From IMG/VR virus record IMGVR_UViG_3300034066_000059, positions 1-22,710 of that record: 22,710 nt of DNA; one strand, given 5' to 3'. Below, one piece after another: positions 519-16,035 of the stretch. The notes under the pieces were generated by a model. It was not told the origin of the DNA, made no database searches, and saw only the letters and a list, made by a program, of their open reading frames with translations. The DNA comes from a virus. The position numbers and the translations under genes are program-made. How positions within the stretch are numbered: the first letter of the stretch is position 1; every line of letters starts with the position of its first letter.

Positions 519-1060
519 AAAGCAAAACGATAGAACAAGTTACGATAGAAAAACTGATCCCGTATGCAAGGAACAGTCGCACCCATAGTGATGCACAAAT
601 AGCGCAAATTGCTGCAAGCATCAAAGAATTTGGGTTCGTAAACCCCGTGCTTATTGATGAGCAATACGGCATTGTCGCGGGTCATGGGCGCGTGATGGCG
701 GCGCGTAAATTGGGCATGGAAGAAGTTCCGTGTATCAAATTAACTCATCTCACGGAAAATCAAAAGCGGGCTTATGTTATTGCCGATAACAAATTGGCAT
801 TAAACGCTGGTTGGGACGATGAGATGTTGCGCGTTGAATTGCAAGAATTAAGCGATGCGGACTTTAATCTTGCGTTTACGGGATTTGACGAAAATGAGTT
901 AATGAAACTCATGGGCTTAGAAGAAAAAGAAGAAGCAACAGAACAATCTGTGGACGCGGTTTTTGAAATTGTCATTAGTTGTTCAAGCGAAGATGAACAG
1001 CAAAATTTGTTTGAAACAATGACGACCAAGGGATACAAATGCCGCGTTTTAACCATGTAG
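515..1060 (+). CDS. ParB/Srx-fold nuclease-like protein
   Basis: This 181-residue protein has a ParB N-terminal-type domain: a start like IEKLIPYARNSRTHSDAQI (11-29), the helix IAASIKEFGFVNPVLID (32-48), and the core nucleotide-binding motif GIVAGHGRVMAARKLG (52-67). The ENQKRAYVIADNKLAL stretch (81-96) is typical of phage ParB domains that are often fused to a DNA methyltransferase; here no methylase follows. Instead there is an acidic linker (about 132-148) and a small C-terminal module ending in GYKCRVLTM. It overlaps the next gene by 22 bases, so the two are probably made together. There is no ParA nearby, so plasmid-type partition is unlikely. A role in DNA cleavage, NTP use or DNA modification during packaging is inferred, not shown. 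Confidence 0.8.
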   Translation: MKSKTIEQVTIEKLIPYARNSRTHSDAQIAQIAASIKEFGFVNPVLIDEQYGIVAGHGRVMAARKLGMEEVPCIKLTHLTENQKRAYVIADNKLALNAGWDDEMLRVELQELSDADFNLAFTGFDENELMKLMGLEEKEEATEQSVDAVFEIVISCSSEDEQQNLFETMTTKGYKCRVLTM

Positions 1061-2121
1061 TAGAAACTCAATATCAACCGTCTTTTAGAACAGAAAAAGT
1101 CGCTGGCATGTTTGATGTGCCGGTTGAACCCGTGATTAGAAAATCATGGATGGTTGATTTGCCAATTGAAGCAGCACCGTGGTCAATCGGTTTGATCGTT
1201 GGTGCAAGCGGCGCGGGCAAAACAACAATTGCAAAACGAGCATTTAAAGATGCAACATTTTTTGAGCAACATCAATGGGGCGCAACATCGTTTTTAAATG
1301 ATTTTAAAAAAGAGTTGGACGTAAAACAAATTACAGATTCTTTAAGTCATGTTGGATTTGCCAGCCCGCCATCTTGGTTGTTGCCATATTATTGTTTAAG
1401 TAACGGTCAAAAATTTAGGGCTGATTTAGCAAGGGCAATTTTAGAAACAGAAGGCATTCTCGTTTTTGATGAATTTACATCTTTGGTTGATCGCACAGTC
1501 GCCAAAATTGGCAGTTATGCAGTGCAAAAATTTGTTCGCAAAATGAACAGGCAATTTGTTGCGGTTACATGCCATTATGATGTTGCGGAATGGTTAGAGC
1601 CTGATTGGATTTATGATGTTTCGACAATGGAATTTTCTCGGAGGTCACTTCGGCGACCACAAATCGAAGTCCAGATTTCACAAGTACATCATTCCGTCTG
1701 GCAAATATTCAAAGGCCATCATTATTTAAGCGCCGAATTAAACAAGGCCAGTAAAATTTTTGTTGCTGAAATTGAGCAACAACCGGCAGCAATGGTGGCG
1801 ATTTTGCCGTTTCCGCATCCGCACATAAAAAACATGTGGAAAGGTCATCGAACGGTAGTTTTGCCTGATTTCCAAGGAATTGGATTGGGTAATAAATTAA
1901 GCGAACATGTCGGTGATTGGTTATTAAATCAAGGCAAAAGATTCACAAGCGTCACCAGCCATCCCGCTATGATTCATTATCGAGCAAAATCCAAAAAATG
2001 GATCATGACTCGCGGGCCAAGCAGATTGGCGCATCCGGGAACAAAAGCAAAAATTCAAACAGCAAAAAACACCAGCATTAGCAGGTTAACAGCGTCTTTT
2101 GAATATGTTGGCAATAAATGA
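1039..2121 (+). CDS. ABC-type ATPase fused to GNAT/Mom-like domain
   Basis: This 360-residue protein has two domains. Residues 20-200 form a soluble ABC-type ATPase: Walker A GASGAGKT (55-62), an LSNGQ signature-like motif (120-124), Walker B ILVFDE (140-145) and a switch histidine (H179, in VAVTCHYDV). There are no membrane segments, so it is not a transporter. Residues 215-335 look like a GNAT fold: HHYLS (227-231), a strand with AAMVAILPF (250-258), and the acyl-CoA loop VVLPDFQGIGLG (273-284), which fits the QxxGxG pattern. The family is familiar to me from phage packaging regions, but I know of no proven function. The GNAT part could act on DNA bases, like phage Mu Mom, or on protein. 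ATG 1039 follows AGGG and lies inside the ParB-like gene. The gene is visibly AT-rich compared with the large terminase gene after it. Confidence 0.75.
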   Translation: MPRFNHVVETQYQPSFRTEKVAGMFDVPVEPVIRKSWMVDLPIEAAPWSIGLIVGASGAGKTTIAKRAFKDATFFEQHQWGATSFLNDFKKELDVKQITDSLSHVGFASPPSWLLPYYCLSNGQKFRADLARAILETEGILVFDEFTSLVDRTVAKIGSYAVQKFVRKMNRQFVAVTCHYDVAEWLEPDWIYDVSTMEFSRRSLRRPQIEVQISQVHHSVWQIFKGHHYLSAELNKASKIFVAEIEQQPAAMVAILPFPHPHIKNMWKGHRTVVLPDFQGIGLGNKLSEHVGDWLLNQGKRFTSVTSHPAMIHYRAKSKKWIMTRGPSRLAHPGTKAKIQTAKNTSISRLTASFEYVGNK

Positions 2122-3779
2122 ATTATGAAGATGGAATCCTTTACGCTGTTGGTGTTGTAAAAGGTGAAATACCCGTCTGCCGAAATGTGCGTTTGGCCTG
2201 CCAGCGGTTCCTAAACCAGCTTGAAGATAAGGCATGGGCGTGGGAATTCCACACCCGTTACGTTGAGCATTTCCTAGAGTTTGCCGGGACGCTGTGCCAC
2301 ACCAAAGGCCCGGACGCTGGCAAGCCCCTGGTCTTGCAGCCGTTTCAAGTTTTCCTGATTTGCGCCATCTATGGCTTTCGGTCAAAAAAAGACCAAAAGC
2401 AAAGAATGGTGCGGGATGTGATTGTGTACATTCCCAGGAAGGCGGGCAAATCTACCCTGATTGCGGCTATCGGGCTTTATGAACTGGCCTTTGGGGAATC
2501 CGGGGCCGAAGTCTATTGCTTGGCGACAAACCGCGACCAAGCATCCATCGTGTTTACGGCGGCGCAGGGTTTCATTGATGCGATGCCGCCAGATGTTGCT
2601 GCGCTGTTCAATCCAAGCAGGAACCGCATCACAAAGCTGGGCGATGCCCAAAGCCGGTTTGAAGCCCTTAGCAGGGACACCAAAAAGACCGGGGACGGCA
2701 AAAACCCGTCTTGCGCCATCATTGACGAAGCGGCGCAAATTGTTGATCGCAACAGCATTGAGGTTCTTTTTTCGGGCATGGTGGCGCGTCAAAACCCGTT
2801 GCGTATTTACATCACCACCGCCAGCTTTACAAAAGAAACCAAGTTTTACGAGGACATGCAAATGCTGGAAGCAATGCTGTCCGGGGAAGCCGTGGACAAC
2901 CCAAGATGGTTTGGGTTACTTTTTAGTTTGGATCTTGCCGATGATTGGCGAGACCCGACAACATGGGCAAAAGCAAACCCGATGCATGGGATAAGCGTTT
3001 TTGAAGAAGCGATTTCCCAAAGAGCAGAAGAAGCGAAACACAAGCCCGCAGCTTTAAATGAATTTCTATGCAAGACCCTGAACCTTTACGTCAGCGCAAA
3101 TAGCGCCTGGGTTGATCGGAATTATTGGGATGACCCAAGGTGCAACATCATGACCCAGCGGGAGCCAGAATCCGTTTTCATTGGATTTGATTTAGCAGCA
3201 GTCCGCGACCTTAATGCCGTTTGTACTTTGAAGCGATACGACGATGCTGATTTTGAAGCCGAATGGAAATTCTTCATGCCTGAGGAGGGGTTTTCCCTAA
3301 TTCCAAAACATTACGGCGATATTTTTCGTGTGGCGCGGCAATCGGGCATTTTGCACATCACAGAAGGCAATGTGATGGATGACCGCGAAATCAGCGATTA
3401 CATCATTCAGCAATCAAACCGATATCATGTGACCGAAATTGGCTATGACGCATACAACGCAGCGTCACTGGTTGCAAGGCTGCACGATTCAGGATTGCCG
3501 GTCAAAAAGGTGGGGCAAGGCATGGCGGTTCTTAGCAACCCGTCAAAACACGTTGAAAAACTCATCATGCAACATGCGATTAAGCATGATGGCAATCCAT
3601 TCGTGGGATGGCAGTTGGGAAACTGCGAGGTTTATATAGATGTGAACGGAAACGTCAAGGTTCGCAAGAATGAAGCAGACAAAAGCGCAAAAGTAGATGG
3701 TATTATTGCGCTTATCATTGCGATGCATTGCAGCTTAGATCATCCCGCAATGAGTGGATTTGGTTTCCGCACCTTGTAA
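2118..3779 (+). CDS. terL: Terminase large subunit
   Basis: This 553-residue protein is the ATP-driven packaging motor and nuclease that cuts concatemers and pumps DNA through the portal. The ATPase domain has an adenine-binding LQPFQ (73-77), Walker A IPRKAGKST (105-113), Walker B AIIDEA (200-205) and an ITTAS coupling motif (232-236). The RNase H-like nuclease has acidic residues at D358 (IGFDLA), D444 (GYDAYNA) and D527 (KVDGIIAL), the usual three-site pattern, so it appears intact. Length and motif spacing fit the HK97-type large terminases. ATG 2118 overlaps the preceding TGA. Local base composition rises sharply at this gene start compared with the upstream cassette. Confidence 0.96.
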   Translation: MNYEDGILYAVGVVKGEIPVCRNVRLACQRFLNQLEDKAWAWEFHTRYVEHFLEFAGTLCHTKGPDAGKPLVLQPFQVFLICAIYGFRSKKDQKQRMVRDVIVYIPRKAGKSTLIAAIGLYELAFGESGAEVYCLATNRDQASIVFTAAQGFIDAMPPDVAALFNPSRNRITKLGDAQSRFEALSRDTKKTGDGKNPSCAIIDEAAQIVDRNSIEVLFSGMVARQNPLRIYITTASFTKETKFYEDMQMLEAMLSGEAVDNPRWFGLLFSLDLADDWRDPTTWAKANPMHGISVFEEAISQRAEEAKHKPAALNEFLCKTLNLYVSANSAWVDRNYWDDPRCNIMTQREPESVFIGFDLAAVRDLNAVCTLKRYDDADFEAEWKFFMPEEGFSLIPKHYGDIFRVARQSGILHITEGNVMDDREISDYIIQQSNRYHVTEIGYDAYNAASLVARLHDSGLPVKKVGQGMAVLSNPSKHVEKLIMQHAIKHDGNPFVGWQLGNCEVYIDVNGNVKVRKNEADKSAKVDGIIALIIAMHCSLDHPAMSGFGFRTL

Positions 3780-3788
3780 GGACGCATC

Positions 3789-5195
3789 ATGAAAATCCCA
3801 GGTATCCCCGAAATTTTTCAGCGTAAAGCTGCAAAAGCGGATGAATCAAACACGCTTTATGGGCAAACGGCGCTTGGGAATAATATTGTTTACCAAGGCG
3901 ACAACAAGCGCCCAACGGTAAACACGCAAATTCTGTATGTAACCACTAGCAGCACCACAGATGCAGGCAGGCCGGTTGATACAAGCCTGCTATCGCGCAA
4001 CAGTACGGTTATGTCGTGCGTTTCCGTCAAGGCTCGGGCCATTTCGCAGTTGCCAATCAAGATTATGGCGAAAGCCGACGATGGCACATATGTCGATGCT
4101 ATCTGCTCGGACAAAGTTGGAACAAGGGATAAAGCAAAAGCCAAATCTGTTTTAACTCTATTGGAAAACCCTAATAACTTCCAAAGCCAATATGAATTTT
4201 GGTATCAGTGGATGATGTGGCATGAAATGCTTGGCGAAGCCTTCACCTTGTGGTGGAGGAAAGACCAAGACAGCAACACGCAAACACCTTTGGAAATGTA
4301 CATTTTGGACAGCACATTGATTGCTGTCACGATTACGCCTGCTCGATATCCGTCTTATCGTCTTAGCACCCCAAGCTATGGATTCAGCAAGGATGAGCCG
4401 CTGGCAATGCATCAGGTGATGCATGTTAAAGATCAGGCGTGGCAAGGTTCGGCAGGTTTTAACAAAGGCATTCTGGCTGCCGAGTTGGTCGGGCTAGATC
4501 AGGATATTGATTTGTATGCCAATTACGTCATGCTAAACGGGGCCAAGCCCAGCGGCTTGTTTATCACTGAACAGGTGATTCCCGACAGCAAATATAAAGA
4601 AATTGCAGCGCGTCTAAAAGAGGCGTGGTCAAGTATGGTCGGGAGCCAAAAGACCGACAAGAGCAAACCCGGACAGGGCATGCTGCTAGATCAGGGCATG
4701 AAATATGAAGCCCTTAAACCCTTGACCCTGCAAGATACCGATTTGGCAAACCTGAAGCTGCAAACCATGAAGCGAATTTGCGCTGTGTATGGTGTGCCGC
4801 CAAGCATGGTTGGCGTGGGTGATAGCAAATACAACAACACGCAAACGATGCTGGATGAGTTTTATAAATCGACGATGTATCCGGTTTTGGTGAACGTTCA
4901 GCAGAAATTAAAGCAGCAGCTTTTTAACGGCTACCCAAATTTGTATGTGGAATTCGACACCAAAAATTTCCTGAAGGGTGCGCCGTTGGATCAAATGAAT
5001 TTTGCTCAATCTGGCGTGTCCAATGGCATCATGACACCAAATGAAGCACGGGAATATTTGGGCATGAGTAAAATTGACAACGCCGACCAATTGAAAAGTG
5101 ACGCAAAACCAGCGGAACCAATTCCTGGCAGCAGCCCGCAAGACACCGGGGGCGGGGGCGGCAATCAGACCCGGAAAATGAACATTGGCAAATAA
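3789..5195 (+). CDS. Portal protein, HK97 family
   Basis: This 468-residue protein would form the dodecameric ring at the capsid vertex through which DNA enters and leaves. Family features include the N-terminal NSTVMSCVSVKARAISQLPI helix (71-90), LLENPN (124-129), the aromatic FWYQWMMWHEMLGEAF stretch (137-152), and the conserved clip/stem region with KRICAVYGVPPSMVG (328-342) and YNNTQTMLDEFYKSTMYPVL (348-367). The C-terminus is a Gly/Pro-rich tail, probably flexible. The length is typical. The start follows AAGGA. It sits directly between the large terminase and the protease, the canonical place. Confidence 0.95.
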   Translation: MKIPGIPEIFQRKAAKADESNTLYGQTALGNNIVYQGDNKRPTVNTQILYVTTSSTTDAGRPVDTSLLSRNSTVMSCVSVKARAISQLPIKIMAKADDGTYVDAICSDKVGTRDKAKAKSVLTLLENPNNFQSQYEFWYQWMMWHEMLGEAFTLWWRKDQDSNTQTPLEMYILDSTLIAVTITPARYPSYRLSTPSYGFSKDEPLAMHQVMHVKDQAWQGSAGFNKGILAAELVGLDQDIDLYANYVMLNGAKPSGLFITEQVIPDSKYKEIAARLKEAWSSMVGSQKTDKSKPGQGMLLDQGMKYEALKPLTLQDTDLANLKLQTMKRICAVYGVPPSMVGVGDSKYNNTQTMLDEFYKSTMYPVLVNVQQKLKQQLFNGYPNLYVEFDTKNFLKGAPLDQMNFAQSGVSNGIMTPNEAREYLGMSKIDNADQLKSDAKPAEPIPGSSPQDTGGGGGNQTRKMNIGK

Positions 5196-5197
5196 AA

Positions 5198-5416
5198 TTG
5201 TCCATTATTTTCCGAATAGTGGTAGCATCCCTGGCAACATATAAGCCAAATGCTGACCCGCCACCTAAACGCGGGAGGCCACCTAAAATAATATACGACA
5301 TTGATAGATCAAACGTCGTTGAGGTAATACATGACCAAGCAAATGCTGATCCTGTGCGAAGCCAAACTAGCAACCGAGGCCGCACAAAGCGGAAAAGCAC
5401 CGACCGGAAAGATTGA
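5198..5416 (+). CDS. Possible small AT-hook protein
   Basis: A 72-residue frame begins at TTG 5198, just after the portal stop, and overlaps the protease start by 86 bases in another frame. It encodes KRGRPPK, close to the AT-hook core that binds the minor groove of AT-rich DNA, and later a second basic stretch, NRGRTKRK. Each is preceded by NADP, and the DNA under the two NADP motifs is nearly repeated (AAGCCAAATGCTGACCC and AAGCAAATGCTGATCC). Against it: no Shine-Dalgarno sequence, a rare start codon (GTG 5219 is an alternative), and the second basic stretch lies in the overlap with a well-supported gene. Even if it is not translated, these 135 bases are the only extended space between portal and protease. 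Confidence 0.35.
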   Translation: MSIIFRIVVASLATYKPNADPPPKRGRPPKIIYDIDRSNVVEVIHDQANADPVRSQTSNRGRTKRKSTDRKD

Positions 5417-6134
5417 GGCCCGAGTTACCACCTGGGGGCCGCGTGAAGGCGCAGACGGTCGGCGTTTTTTCTATAAGCCCGAGGGCTTTATGGATTGGGC
5501 AAAAGAATTTACATCGTCGGGCAGGCCGTTGCCCATGTTTGTCAATCATTCCGCAGATCAAATCCCTGTTGGTGAATGGACAGAATTTGCGTTTGATGAT
5601 GAGGGCATGACAGCTACCGGACGGCTGTACATGAACACCACACAGGGCGCAGACCTATATAACGTCATGAGCGAAAGCCCCGCAATGTTTGGCGGCGTTT
5701 CGGTTGGCGCATACGCTGAAGAATTTCAGTGGGTCAAAGAAGATGGCGAAGTGTTTCCCGCTGGATCGGGCGATTATTGGGATGAGGGTTATTTTCAAAT
5801 CACCAAAGGCGGGCTGCGCGAAGTGTCCGTGGTGATGTACCCCAACAATCCAGCAGCCGAAGTGCAAAAGCTGGAATACTTTACAGCCGAGGGGCGCGTA
5901 AACCCTCGCATGATGGAAAAGGCTCTGCGTGAGGCAGGGCTTTGCCGAAAGGATGCGACCACCGCATCTTTGTTGTTCGACAAAATTTTGTTGGCGCGTG
6001 AGGCCCAGCAAAAGCCTGTCGAAAAACCCCAAATCGTGAGTGAGTCCGATGCGGTGGCCGAAGAAGCAGCAATTCTCGAAGCACTTCAGCAACGCGAATT
6101 GATGCAAGCCCTTAATGCACGTTTGAAAGGTTAA
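5331..6134 (+). CDS. Prohead maturation protease, HK97 gp4-like (S78)
   Basis: This 267-residue serine protease would cut the delta domain from the capsid protein, and itself, during prohead maturation. The fold signature is present: MFVNHSADQIPVGEW with likely catalytic His73, AMFGGVSVGAY with likely catalytic Ser124, and GLREVSVVMYPNNPAAEV (161-178), the usual third conserved block. Residues 190-267 form a charged, helical C-terminal tail that may target it to the scaffold. ATG 5331 has GAGG ten bases upstream, which decides the start. It is followed directly by the capsid gene. Confidence 0.93.
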   Translation: MTKQMLILCEAKLATEAAQSGKAPTGKIEARVTTWGPREGADGRRFFYKPEGFMDWAKEFTSSGRPLPMFVNHSADQIPVGEWTEFAFDDEGMTATGRLYMNTTQGADLYNVMSESPAMFGGVSVGAYAEEFQWVKEDGEVFPAGSGDYWDEGYFQITKGGLREVSVVMYPNNPAAEVQKLEYFTAEGRVNPRMMEKALREAGLCRKDATTASLLFDKILLAREAQQKPVEKPQIVSESDAVAEEAAILEALQQRELMQALNARLKG

Positions 6135-6136
6135 TC

Positions 6137-7486
6137 ATGTCTGACAAAATTATTGAAAAGCTGGACGCTATCGCAGCATCCAACGAAGCCAAAATCAGCG
6201 AAATCACTGCGGCTGCTGAGGCCAAAGTGGATGCCGCTAAAGCTGAACTGACCGAAAAAGTCGCAGCCCTGGAAGCCAAAATTTCCACCCTGCAAGCGCC
6301 TGCTTACATCGAGCGCACAAGCCCCAGTGTTCGCAAAGAAGTGAACAAATCGGTTCGTGAGCAACTGAAACAAGTTATTGGCGGCAAATCGCAGTTTGAA
6401 AAAGAACTGAAGATTTTTGCCAACGAAGCTGAGATGCAAGCCTATTTGAGCGAGGCATCGGCCCTGACCGGCGGCGGTAATAATCAGGGTGGACGCACCG
6501 CGTATGACCCCGTGTTTCGTGCGCTGCGTCTTGCCAACCCGCTGCGCGGCATGTCCCGCACCGTGGCAACTGATGGTTCAAGCTATCAATTCCGCGTCAA
6601 GACCGGCAACGCTGGCGCACAGTGGGGCTACGCCATTCAAAACAACGGCGCGGCAACAACCGAGGACACCAGCATTTGGCAAATTGTGCTGAAGGATATC
6701 AACGTCCAATTCCCGATCCGCACTGCGGCTCTGGATGACATTGATGGCCTTGAGGCGAACGTTGTCGATGACATGCTGGCCGAATTCGCACAGTCTGAGG
6801 CGCTTTCGATGGTGGCCAATAATGACCAGAGCGGCACCGGCACATCGGTTGCAACTGGCGGCGCTGATGGCTTGCGCGGTTTGGATCAGTACCCTGGCGC
6901 AAATGCTACATACGCGGGCGGCACGTTCAGCGTTTCGGCATTTGGCACTAGCGGCACCGGTTCGACGACCGGTCTGCATAACGTGGCAACTTATGACCAG
7001 ATTACCACCAACGGCAATACCGTCGGCGCAAATAACATCACATATAACGATGTTATCAATCTGATCTATGCATTGCCGCAGCAGTATTGGACAGAAAACG
7101 CCAAGTTCCTGATTAGCCCGATTTTGCTGAACGGCATTCGGAATTTGAAGGACAACAACGGCGCACCGATCTTTAATCGTAACGAAGGTCTGTCGGTTGA
7201 GGGTATTGTTGGTCAGTTGCTGGGCTTTGACGTTGTGGTCAACAAGTATTTGGACACGCCATCGCAAACCGCAACGGGGTCGGCTGGCACAACTAGCCTG
7301 TATCCGATGTATTTTGCGGATTGGAGCCGGTTCCATACCATCATTGACCGTCTGAATATGGTTATGCGGAGATATGACCAGACGCTCCCAGGATTTATTA
7401 CATTCTTTGGGGAAAAGCGTTTGGCAACATCTGTGCGCGACCCGTTTGCTGGTGTGCGTTATCGCTCGACCGGCACCGCGACCTAA
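6137..7486 (+). CDS. Major capsid protein, HK97 fold, with delta domain
   Basis: This 449-residue protein is the main shell subunit. Residues 1-55 are an Ala/Lys/Glu-rich coiled coil, the scaffold-like delta domain removed by the S78 protease; the mature shell domain probably starts around residue 100-112, near SEASALTGG. Landmarks of the fold include FRALRLANPLRG (127-138), FPIRTAALDDIDG (192-204), GGADGLRGLD (241-250), YALPQQYW (311-318), and a C-terminal PGFITFFGEKRLATSVRDPF (418-437). It has a good Shine-Dalgarno (GAAAGG, 6125-6130). A paralogue follows after a terminator. Codon use is GC-richer than in nearby genes, as expected for a highly expressed structural gene. Confidence 0.95.
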   Translation: MSDKIIEKLDAIAASNEAKISEITAAAEAKVDAAKAELTEKVAALEAKISTLQAPAYIERTSPSVRKEVNKSVREQLKQVIGGKSQFEKELKIFANEAEMQAYLSEASALTGGGNNQGGRTAYDPVFRALRLANPLRGMSRTVATDGSSYQFRVKTGNAGAQWGYAIQNNGAATTEDTSIWQIVLKDINVQFPIRTAALDDIDGLEANVVDDMLAEFAQSEALSMVANNDQSGTGTSVATGGADGLRGLDQYPGANATYAGGTFSVSAFGTSGTGSTTGLHNVATYDQITTNGNTVGANNITYNDVINLIYALPQQYWTENAKFLISPILLNGIRNLKDNNGAPIFNRNEGLSVEGIVGQLLGFDVVVNKYLDTPSQTATGSAGTTSLYPMYFADWSRFHTIIDRLNMVMRRYDQTLPGFITFFGEKRLATSVRDPFAGVRYRSTGTAT

Positions 7487-7501
7487 TTGCAGGAAGCCAT
7501 T

Positions 7502-7529
7502 GGCGGGGGATTCGTCCCCTGCCTTTTTT
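7502..7529 (+). terminator. Intrinsic terminator between the two capsid genes
   Basis: GGCGGGGGA (7502-7510) pairs with TCCCCTGCC (7515-7523) across a TTCG tetraloop: nine pairs with one G-T, followed by six T residues (7524-7529). This is a textbook rho-independent terminator with a very stable loop. It lies 16 bases after the first capsid stop and 22 bases before the second capsid start, so it would cut read-through into the paralogue and all downstream genes unless antiterminated. Confidence 0.9.
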
Positions 7530-7551
7530 CCAAACAATAAACGGACAAATC

Positions 7552-8568
7552 ATGACCATCACCGAAAAAATCCTCAGCGGTATTAAGCAGGCAATCACCG
7601 AAGGCGGTGAGGCAAAAATTGATTTGCAAGAAGCGTCGGCAATTACCGGCTCGGGTTCGGGTGTTGGCGGTAATGTTGTTTTTGATGATGCTTTCGCAGC
7701 ATTGCGATATGCAAACCCTTTTCGTTTGGCTGCGCGACAAATTCCTGCCATTGGCTCGGATATGCAATTTGTTGCAAAAACCGGTAACGCAGCAAACAGC
7801 ACGAATCCTTGGGGCTACACGTTTACGCCTAATAGCGGTTCACCCAACGTAAACACCAGCATTTGGCAATTGCCTGTGCGCGTGTTGGTGGCTGAATTGC
7901 CGATTCGAACAGCGGTGCTGTCGGACGTTAACAATCTTGAGCCGACGATTGCCGAAGATTTGATGCTAGAGTTTTCGGCTCTTGAGGCCACTTCAATGGC
8001 GGTCAATAACGATCAAGCTGGAAGCACTACAACAAGCACGGGCGGCACAAATGGCCTGCGGGGCTTGGACATGTACGCCAGCGGCGCGGCAAGCGCATTC
8101 GGCACCAGCGGAACCGCAATTACAAACGGCATCCATACGCTGGCAACGGTGTCGCTTGGCGGGTCGGCTGTAACCTACAACAAGGTTGTGGACATGGTGA
8201 ACGCTTTGCCACCGCAATATTGGATGCTGCCGGGGACGATGTGGCACATGACCCCGACGATGATTCAAACGCTGCGCCAACTAAAAGACAACCAAGGTTT
8301 GCCGCTGTTTCTTGAGATTGGCGAAAAAGACGGTTGCGCTTTGGGGCATGTGTTTGGGTTCCCGGTTATTGCCAATCCTTACCTGACAAGCGCATTCCCG
8401 ATTTACCTTGCAAATTGGACGCGATTCCTGACCATTGGTGACACTGAGCAAATGACGATTAAAGCATTTGAACAAACACAGCCTGGGTTTATTACGATGT
8501 TTGCGGAAAAGCGCATGGTGTCATCTGTGCGTGATCCGTTTGCCGGTGTTCGCATGAGCGCAGCCTAA
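7552..8568 (+). CDS. Second major capsid paralogue without delta domain
   Basis: This 338-residue protein matches the first capsid protein along its shell domain: QEASAITGSG against SEASALTGGG, LRYANPFR against LRLANPLR, NTSIWQL, LPIRTAVL, GGTNGLRGLDMY, ALPPQYW, LKDNQGLPLF, and PGFITMFAEKRMVSSVRDPF. It has only about 27 residues before the conserved block, so the coiled-coil scaffold domain is missing and the protein resembles an already processed subunit. All fold blocks are kept, which argues against a decaying copy. It has a weak Shine-Dalgarno (ACGGAC, 7541-7546) and sits behind a terminator, so it is probably made at a lower level. It may form pentamers, a minor shell component, or an alternative shell; this is inference. 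Confidence 0.9.
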   Translation: MTITEKILSGIKQAITEGGEAKIDLQEASAITGSGSGVGGNVVFDDAFAALRYANPFRLAARQIPAIGSDMQFVAKTGNAANSTNPWGYTFTPNSGSPNVNTSIWQLPVRVLVAELPIRTAVLSDVNNLEPTIAEDLMLEFSALEATSMAVNNDQAGSTTTSTGGTNGLRGLDMYASGAASAFGTSGTAITNGIHTLATVSLGGSAVTYNKVVDMVNALPPQYWMLPGTMWHMTPTMIQTLRQLKDNQGLPLFLEIGEKDGCALGHVFGFPVIANPYLTSAFPIYLANWTRFLTIGDTEQMTIKAFEQTQPGFITMFAEKRMVSSVRDPFAGVRMSAA

Positions 8569-14997: not shown

Positions 14998-15599
14998 ACG
15001 TAATCACCCCAGTTCAAAACACAAGCAATATTCGCATTGCGGATTTCTTGCGTATATACACCACAAGCGGCGCATATTTGATGACAACCGCGCCCTCAAA
15101 CATGACGGTACCAGCAGTCGACGCTGCGCCATTCCAATCGGTTGGCACATTGTTGGCAATTGGTCAAATACAGCGCGACATTAAATCAACTGCCAACGAT
15201 ACAACAATCTCATTGTCGGGCATCGACACTTCAATGCTGGGCTTTGTCCTTGGGCAAAACGTCAAGGGTTCGCCAATTCAACTGTGGCATGGATTCTTTG
15301 ACACCGACGGCGCATTGATTACAACGGGCGGCACGGGTGGCTTGTATCAATACTTTAGCGGCATCATTACATCGTTTGCCATCAGTGAACAGTGGATGGA
15401 CGAAGCGCGAATGTATGTCGGAACAATCAGCGTTTCGGCATCGTCGATTCAATTGATCTTGCAAAATCGCATCGCGGGCCGATACACAAACAACAGTTCA
15501 TGGCAGTTCTACAACAGCACAGACACAAGCATGAATCGGGTTCCGTTTATCGAAACGATTAACTATCAATTCGGAAAAGATGCGCCCGCAAATTCGTAA
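14994..15599 (+). CDS. Minor tail protein, gpL-like position
   Basis: This 201-residue protein starts with GTG 14994, overlapping the previous stop. It has a beta-rich body with ISLSGIDTSMLGFVLGQNVK, a HGFFDTDGALITTGG turn, and a C-terminal segment (SMNRVPFIETINYQFGKDAP) that resembles phage tail-tip proteins with a late, Trp/Phe-rich end. Together with the next gene it fills the slots of lambda gpL and gpK. There is no iron-sulphur cysteine set as in lambda gpL, and I see only the position and general plan as support. Confidence 0.65.
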   Translation: MNVITPVQNTSNIRIADFLRIYTTSGAYLMTTAPSNMTVPAVDAAPFQSVGTLLAIGQIQRDIKSTANDTTISLSGIDTSMLGFVLGQNVKGSPIQLWHGFFDTDGALITTGGTGGLYQYFSGIITSFAISEQWMDEARMYVGTISVSASSIQLILQNRIAGRYTNNSSWQFYNSTDTSMNRVPFIETINYQFGKDAPANS

Positions 15600-16035
15600 G
15601 GCATCACCGTTTGATGTGTTGCAGATTTTGGACAAGCTGCGGGATTACCGTTCGCACATGCCCTATGGGTTCTTGGCAGATGCTGATGACGCAGAACACG
15701 TTAAAACGATGCTGGCGCATCTGATGGCGGGCCAGGGCGTGGTGATAGTGGCAGAGCAAGACGAGCGCCTTATAGGCGTTTTAATCGCGGGCGTAATGCC
15801 ATCTGTTTGGTCGCCTAAGCATCTGATGCTGACGGAATTTGCGTATTGGGTAGACGAAGAAGCCAGGGGCGGCACGACAGGCTACCGATTGTTGCGCGAG
15901 TATTTAAACGAAGCGGTTAAGATGAAGGAAGCAGGCCGCATTGCCAATTGTTTTATCAGCAAAATGGTCAGCAGCCCAGATTTGAAATATGAAAAATTTG
16001 GGTTTAAAAAACTTGAAGAATTTTGGGTGATGTAA
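15580..16035 (+). CDS. GNAT-family acetyltransferase in tail module
   Basis: This 151-residue protein has a GNAT plan: an N-terminal RKASPFDVLQILDKL (6-20), a strand pair GVVIVAEQDERLIGVLIAGV (53-72), a central YWVDEEARGGTTGYRLLREY (89-108), where RGGTTG is a loose acyl-CoA loop, and a C-terminal YEKFGFKKLEEFWV (137-150). The RxxGxG/A pattern is imperfect because the last Gly is shifted. It overlaps the previous gene by 20 bases and the hub gene by one, so it belongs to the tail operon. It occupies the place of lambda gpK (a peptidase). The substrate is unknown; it may modify tail-tip or host proteins. Confidence 0.85.
   Translation: MRPQIRKASPFDVLQILDKLRDYRSHMPYGFLADADDAEHVKTMLAHLMAGQGVVIVAEQDERLIGVLIAGVMPSVWSPKHLMLTEFAYWVDEEARGGTTGYRLLREYLNEAVKMKEAGRIANCFISKMVSSPDLKYEKFGFKKLEEFWVM

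Follow-up and report, generated by a model that had tools for sequence, protein, structure and literature searches.

Two HK97-fold capsid genes, with a terminator between them, in a lineage of small tailed phages: a candidate vertex subunit beside the major capsid protein

Two capsid genes in the head region

The window, i.e. the whole stretch of 22,710 nucleotides that was analysed, is a 22.7-kb tailed-phage fragment from IMG/VR in which the gene order is TerS, ParB-like, ABC-ATPase/GNAT fusion, TerL, portal, protease, M1, M2, connector and tail. The features of the head region considered here are:

5331..6134, + strand, prohead protease (Peptidase_S78; PF04586, E=7e-9; PHROG head maturation protease)
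6137..7486, + strand, M1, major capsid protein, 449 aa (PF05065, E=7e-27; HK97 fold in model)
6452..6472, + strand, predicted cleavage block of M1, residues 106-112 (EASALTG), kept in M1 and M2
7502..7529, + strand, intrinsic terminator in the M1-M2 gap (hairpin at 7502-7523 and six T)
7552..8568, + strand, M2, capsid paralogue with short leader, 338 aa (PF05065, E=3e-16; HK97 fold in model)
7552..7629, + strand, conserved 26-residue leader of M2 (alignment of 26 relatives; model)
7630..7650, + strand, retained candidate cleavage block of M2, residues 27-33 (EASAITG), from conservation

Position 7552 is the earliest start codon possible in the M2 frame. A preliminary description of this DNA had claimed two adjacent capsid paralogues, and both ORFs were found where it placed them, together with all of the sequence blocks that it quoted from the two proteins. 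In a BLASTP comparison, M1 and M2 shared 145 of 350 residues (41% identity; E=3e-82) over an alignment extending from residue 99 of M1 and residue 20 of M2 to near the C-termini. Their matches to PF05065, the sole Pfam family identified in either protein (E<=0.001), exceed the curated cut-off, and both match major head protein families in PHROG. AlphaFold models, for which confidence was modest (mean pLDDT 61.8 for M1 and 70.3 for M2), were compared with the PDB using Foldseek and matched HK97-fold capsids (E=3e-16 and 6e-14), with RcGTA and HK97 heads foremost among the best fold matches. The RcGTA capsid Rcc01687, which is among the best matches by fold, is also the nearest relative of known structure in sequence-profile comparison (E=3e-9 for M1 and 2e-4 for M2). 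Judged by their sequences, M1 and M2 are HK97-fold capsid paralogues.

The ABC-ATPase and GNAT acetyltransferase fusion (360 aa; window 1039-2121), located between the ParB-like gene and TerL, matches phrog_11143, a family of unknown function (E=4e-100). Unlike the window, Methylophilaceae phage P19250A carries no ParB-like or ABC-ATPase/GNAT gene at the corresponding place between TerS and TerL. An ORF at 15580-16035, found among the tail genes and directly upstream of a J-like gene, has the look of a GNAT-type acetyltransferase (putative, from the translation only), and a hypothetical gene occupies its place in P19250A.

Occurrence of the gene pair

Viral contigs were searched four times; with the loci of P19250A and an alphaproteobacterial MAG added, this gave 286 loci, window included. 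Each search covered the best 80 matches, from which a distant one-capsid sister group might escape. The M1-M2 tandem was present in 264 of the 286 loci, and the remaining 22 end at a contig edge; a fifth search yielded 77 more loci, 75 with the tandem and 2 cut by the contig. Because several loci overlap on one and the same contig, duplicates were removed from the first set to leave 172 distinct pairs, and M1 is directly followed by M2 in every relative with a contig spanning both places. No relative without M2 was found among the best 80 matches per search, all single-gene cases being contig ends, and the survey of relatives for conserved tandem order that the preliminary description had suggested thus found the tandem in every complete locus. 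A single capsid gene was seen only in the very distant phages RHph_X2_25 and ctGfd272 (about 20-23% identity). A stop or frameshift in M1 or M2 was detected in three tandem loci (L036, L136 and L152), and may be an assembly error in each.

The sole cultured relative in the phage collection is P19250A, a member of the same group in which genes 0005 and 0006 form the same tandem with the same terminator (60% and 55% identity). Gene 0006 is labelled 'hypothetical protein', indicating that the M2-type gene is overlooked at present. A related phage of OM43, Venkman, is described as resembling P19250A in synteny (PMC8163748). A search of the open-access literature found no published second capsid gene for such phages. 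The two-capsid-gene head is real, general and overlooked.

Two further loci were unusual in their setting. The 76 kb contig IMGVR_UViG_3300022748_000017 has the tandem twice, in divergent copies (L101 and L327) about 40 kb apart, and may represent two phage genomes joined, either really or by assembly. A tandem was also located on a 33 kb contig of an Alphaproteobacteria MAG (L154:5998-8445), which could be a prophage or a phage contig sorted into the bin of its host.

Duplication and selection

In a tree of 344 proteins, M1 and M2 were reciprocally monophyletic, with identities of at least 65% within M1, at least 49% within M2 and 34-49% between M1 and M2. The tree indicates that the two clades stem from one old duplication, which falls inside the lineage, with weak support (79; M1 clade 62), when the two very distant one-capsid phages are used as outgroups. 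The M1 and M2 distance matrices correlate (Mantel r 0.69; 0 of 500 permutations), and the divergence of M2 is about 1.5 times that of M1. With dN/dS values of 0.155 for M1 and 0.151 for M2, both genes are under strong purifying selection, and the M1-M2 comparison in the window gave a dN of 0.52 and a dS of 1.84. These values and the reciprocal monophyly agree with the earlier impression that the second gene is old and maintained.

The possibility that M2 is a recent or decaying copy was rejected, as the reciprocal monophyly, the low dN/dS and the retention of M2 in every complete locus are all against it. Gene conversion between M1 and M2 was likewise rejected, as identity within a genome (median 0.424) is not above that between genomes (0.426).

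When 72 representatives were compared, 54 positions were found to be fixed and identical in M1 and M2, and only four were fixed but different (M1/M2 R153/V74, D203/N127, F393/L286 and L406/E299). Outside the delta domain, M1 alone has residues 251-257, 289-295 and 376-384, stretches that we take to belong to the axial A domain, and M2 alone has residues 82-84, presumably in the E-loop. Common shell residues combined with a capsomer centre that differs would fit capsomer specialisation, without proving it.

M2 adjoins the connector gene, which starts mostly within 13 nt of it, and a role outside the shell, for example in the neck or as an assembly factor present only in the prohead, could be read from this position. 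However, M2 has kept the whole fold and the 54 fixed shell residues, and its dN/dS is as low as that of M1, making such a role highly improbable.

A terminator between M1 and M2

The 65-nt gap between M1 and M2 includes GGCGGGGGATTCGTCCCCTGCC followed by TTTTTT at 7502-7529, a terminator on which the preliminary description was silent. A comparable hairpin was found in 172 of the 172 distinct pairs, 168 by script and the other four (L130, L176, L182 and L229) by eye. The folding energy of the gap relative to shuffled sequences has a median z of -2.7, against -0.28 downstream of M2 and +0.16 upstream of M1. An alignment of 19 gaps has 96.5% of its cells paired, with two-sided changes in 7 of the 9 pairs; none of 500 shuffles reached these values, and the signal collapses on a one-column slide. 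As a generic terminator scan by itself was not significant (10 found, 7.7 expected), the case for the terminator rests on conservation and covariation.

A promoter for M2 was sought in the 65-nt gap and none was found. As there is little room for one and the next ORF is close, M2 falls within the operon section downstream of the terminator. Inspection by eye also showed a hairpin following the RHph_X2_25 capsid gene, which has no second capsid gene behind it. The terminator is therefore no specific mark of a vertex gene, and every gene beyond it is lowered equally. In 90% of representatives M1 has a lower effective codon number than M2, a stronger codon bias that would be expected from higher production of M1.

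M2 could also co-assemble with M1 and hold no fixed pentamer position, being placed in a mixed or irregular lattice or at the portal side only, where it would tune stability or composition. The common shell residues kept in M2 allow for this, and HK97-fold shells of mixed and variable composition are known from a Family 2B encapsulin (PMC12407261). However, the universal presence of M2 and the conserved terminator suggest a fixed minor role, and both phage/satellite precedents, T4 gp24 and Ccm, are pentamer-specific. We regard this arrangement as unlikely.

Delta domain, leader and cleavage block

The N-terminal domain of M1 (about residues 1-105) is modelled as predicted helices at residues 2-51, 65-81 and 97-108, and this helical N-terminal domain, with a Peptidase_S78 gene upstream, places M1 in the delta-domain class. 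M2 is without about 80 residues of the M1-type delta domain and has only the 26-residue leader in its place, which upholds the earlier claim that the delta domain is confined to the first protein. The leader is modelled as a helix (residues 3-17) and a strand (20-24) with a pLDDT of about 77, and may be a remnant of the delta domain or a replacement for it.

The block [KR]EASA[LI]T sits immediately after the M2 leader, and in M1 it is found where the delta-domain cut is expected, with 26 residues upstream of it in M2 versus about 105 in M1. Among the 72 representatives, the E is invariant in both proteins and the A, S and T are conserved at 93-97%, the values for M2 being 100% for E27, 95% for A28, 95% for S29 and 97% for T32. 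The protease encoded at 5331..6134 is the presumed cutter of both M1 and M2. As 297 of the 386 residues of the RcGTA capsid chain are modelled in the mature head, its mature N-terminus would lie near residue 89, nine before its GG. A109 in M1 and A30 in M2 stand just as far from their own GG, and would mark a putative cut region.

In T4, gp24 loses 10 residues and gp23 65 (PMC9958956), and the Ccm of SaPIbov5 loses 87 residues and CP 128 (PMC8569155). A shorter yet still cleaved propeptide is the pattern in the known penton paralogues, and by analogy M2, which has kept both the block and a conserved leader, is probably cleaved too and hence not "ready-matured". The earlier suggestion that M2 joins the shell without cleavage is therefore disfavoured. 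A form of it in which M2 is born mature, enters as a pentamer or a patch and is never cleaved, so that the leader stays in the virion, would account for the missing delta domain and the predicted order of the leader, and conservation of the block could serve the N-arm instead of cutting. However, M1 and M2 conserve the block equally well, and T4 gp24 and Ccm are both cleaved, and we judge it quite unlikely that M2 escapes cleavage.

In four loci of one subclade (L182 at 2816-4138, L194, L195 and L208), M2 starts with about 100 extra in-frame residues. What had appeared as a 'gap' of roughly 340 nt that might hold an extra gene proved to be this N-terminal extension. The hairpin is still upstream, and the usual leader and cleavage block follow the added module. 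The module matches phrog_2859 (E=1e-30). In Synechococcus phage S-CBS3 and Roseobacter phage CRP-406 it forms the extreme N-terminus of a 'major head protein' (836 aa) and a 'major capsid protein' (794 aa), respectively, and in Actinomycetia phage DSL-LC01 it occurs in a gene annotated as a capsid maturation protease. The M2 N-terminus can therefore take modules of prohead proteins, and the acquisition of a module at this end fits a lumen-facing propeptide.

Comparison with known two-protein shells

Like M1 and M2, gp23 and gp24 of T4 are paralogous HK97-fold proteins with the minor gene downstream of the major one and the protease gene upstream. An intrinsic terminator, AGGGAACCTTCGGGTTCCCT plus a T run (L367:3537-3556), lies directly after gene 23 and before segD and gene 24, and the minor protein has the shorter propeptide (PMC9958956). 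The preliminary description was thus right to name gp23/gp24 as the comparison. However, M1 and M2, with PF05065 as their only Pfam match, are not members of the gp23/gp24 family, and their 41% identity to each other compares with about 20% for gp23/gp24. The delta domain is fused to M1 whereas the T4 scaffold is separate (gp22), and the genome is about 38 kb (P19250A) rather than 169 kb. T4 gp24 is a vertex protein, whereas the location of M2 at the pentamers is a proposal drawn here from the genes. M2 may work like T4 gp24 while standing outside the gp24 sequence family.

Ccm is, like M2, an HK97-fold capsid homologue with a shorter N-terminal propeptide, and it co-assembles with the capsid protein of phage phi12, to which it is 24% identical, and occupies the pentamers (PMC8569155). 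Ccm alone cannot build shells (PMC8569155). As Ccm redirects assembly via the pentamers (PMC8569155), M2 could set size or shape in a similar way, through a choice of T number or of a prolate versus an isometric head. However, Ccm comes from a satellite in competition with its helper, whereas M2 lies inside the phage head operon in all relatives. Since M1 and M2 share one operon in every genome, there is no alternative genome needing another shell size, and a size-setting role is improbable.

Two-component encapsulins of Family 2B also have two co-assembling HK97-fold shell proteins, though in an irregularly tiled cellular nanocompartment and not a DNA-filled phage head (PMC12407261). In RcGTA, unlike the arrangement proposed for M1 and M2, one protein forms both pentamers and hexamers (PMC7296036).

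Proposed role of M2

On balance, we favour an arrangement in which M1 forms the hexamers and the less abundantly produced M2 forms the 11 non-portal pentamers. M1, with a full delta (scaffold) domain, would build the hexamers of the prohead, and M2, a duplicate minus about 80 delta-domain residues, would supply the pentamers, contributing 55 of 415 subunits if a T=7 head is assumed. The terminator after M1 would limit transcription into M2, so that this minor subunit and the products of later genes would be made at a lower level. The encoded protease would probably cut both proteins at the shared conserved block, releasing the delta domain from M1 and the short leader from M2. That pentamers and hexamers are made from the same protein in related HK97-fold phages counts against a vertex role.

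Based on anatomy and precedent, a pentamer role nevertheless has the best support of the explanations considered and is somewhat the more probable outcome. Among the roles listed in the preliminary description, it stands as the leading candidate. The sequences themselves show the common ancestry of M1 and M2, their tandem order, the single old duplication, purifying selection, the conserved terminator, the block kept in M2 and the stronger codon bias of M1, while the pentamer location, like the stoichiometry and the cleavage of M2, is a part of the two-gene shell proposal that we infer. More tentatively, and a little short of an even prospect, this siphovirus lineage of about 38 kb would have a separate, protease-processed vertex protein that is lowered by a terminator, arose independently of T4 and has an N-terminus that swaps prohead modules (L182, L194, L195 and L208).

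In the textbook view, small tailed phages have one-protein shells in which the same chain serves in hexamer and pentamer. A recent review treats T4 as the exception among tailed phages and ties this to its large genome (PMC13185644). If the proposed role is correct, capsomer specialisation would not need a large genome, and would be found in a lineage represented by hundreds of environmental members and a single phage in culture. The lineage would then offer a compact system for studying how delta domains, cleavage and gene dosage choose the pentamer subunit.
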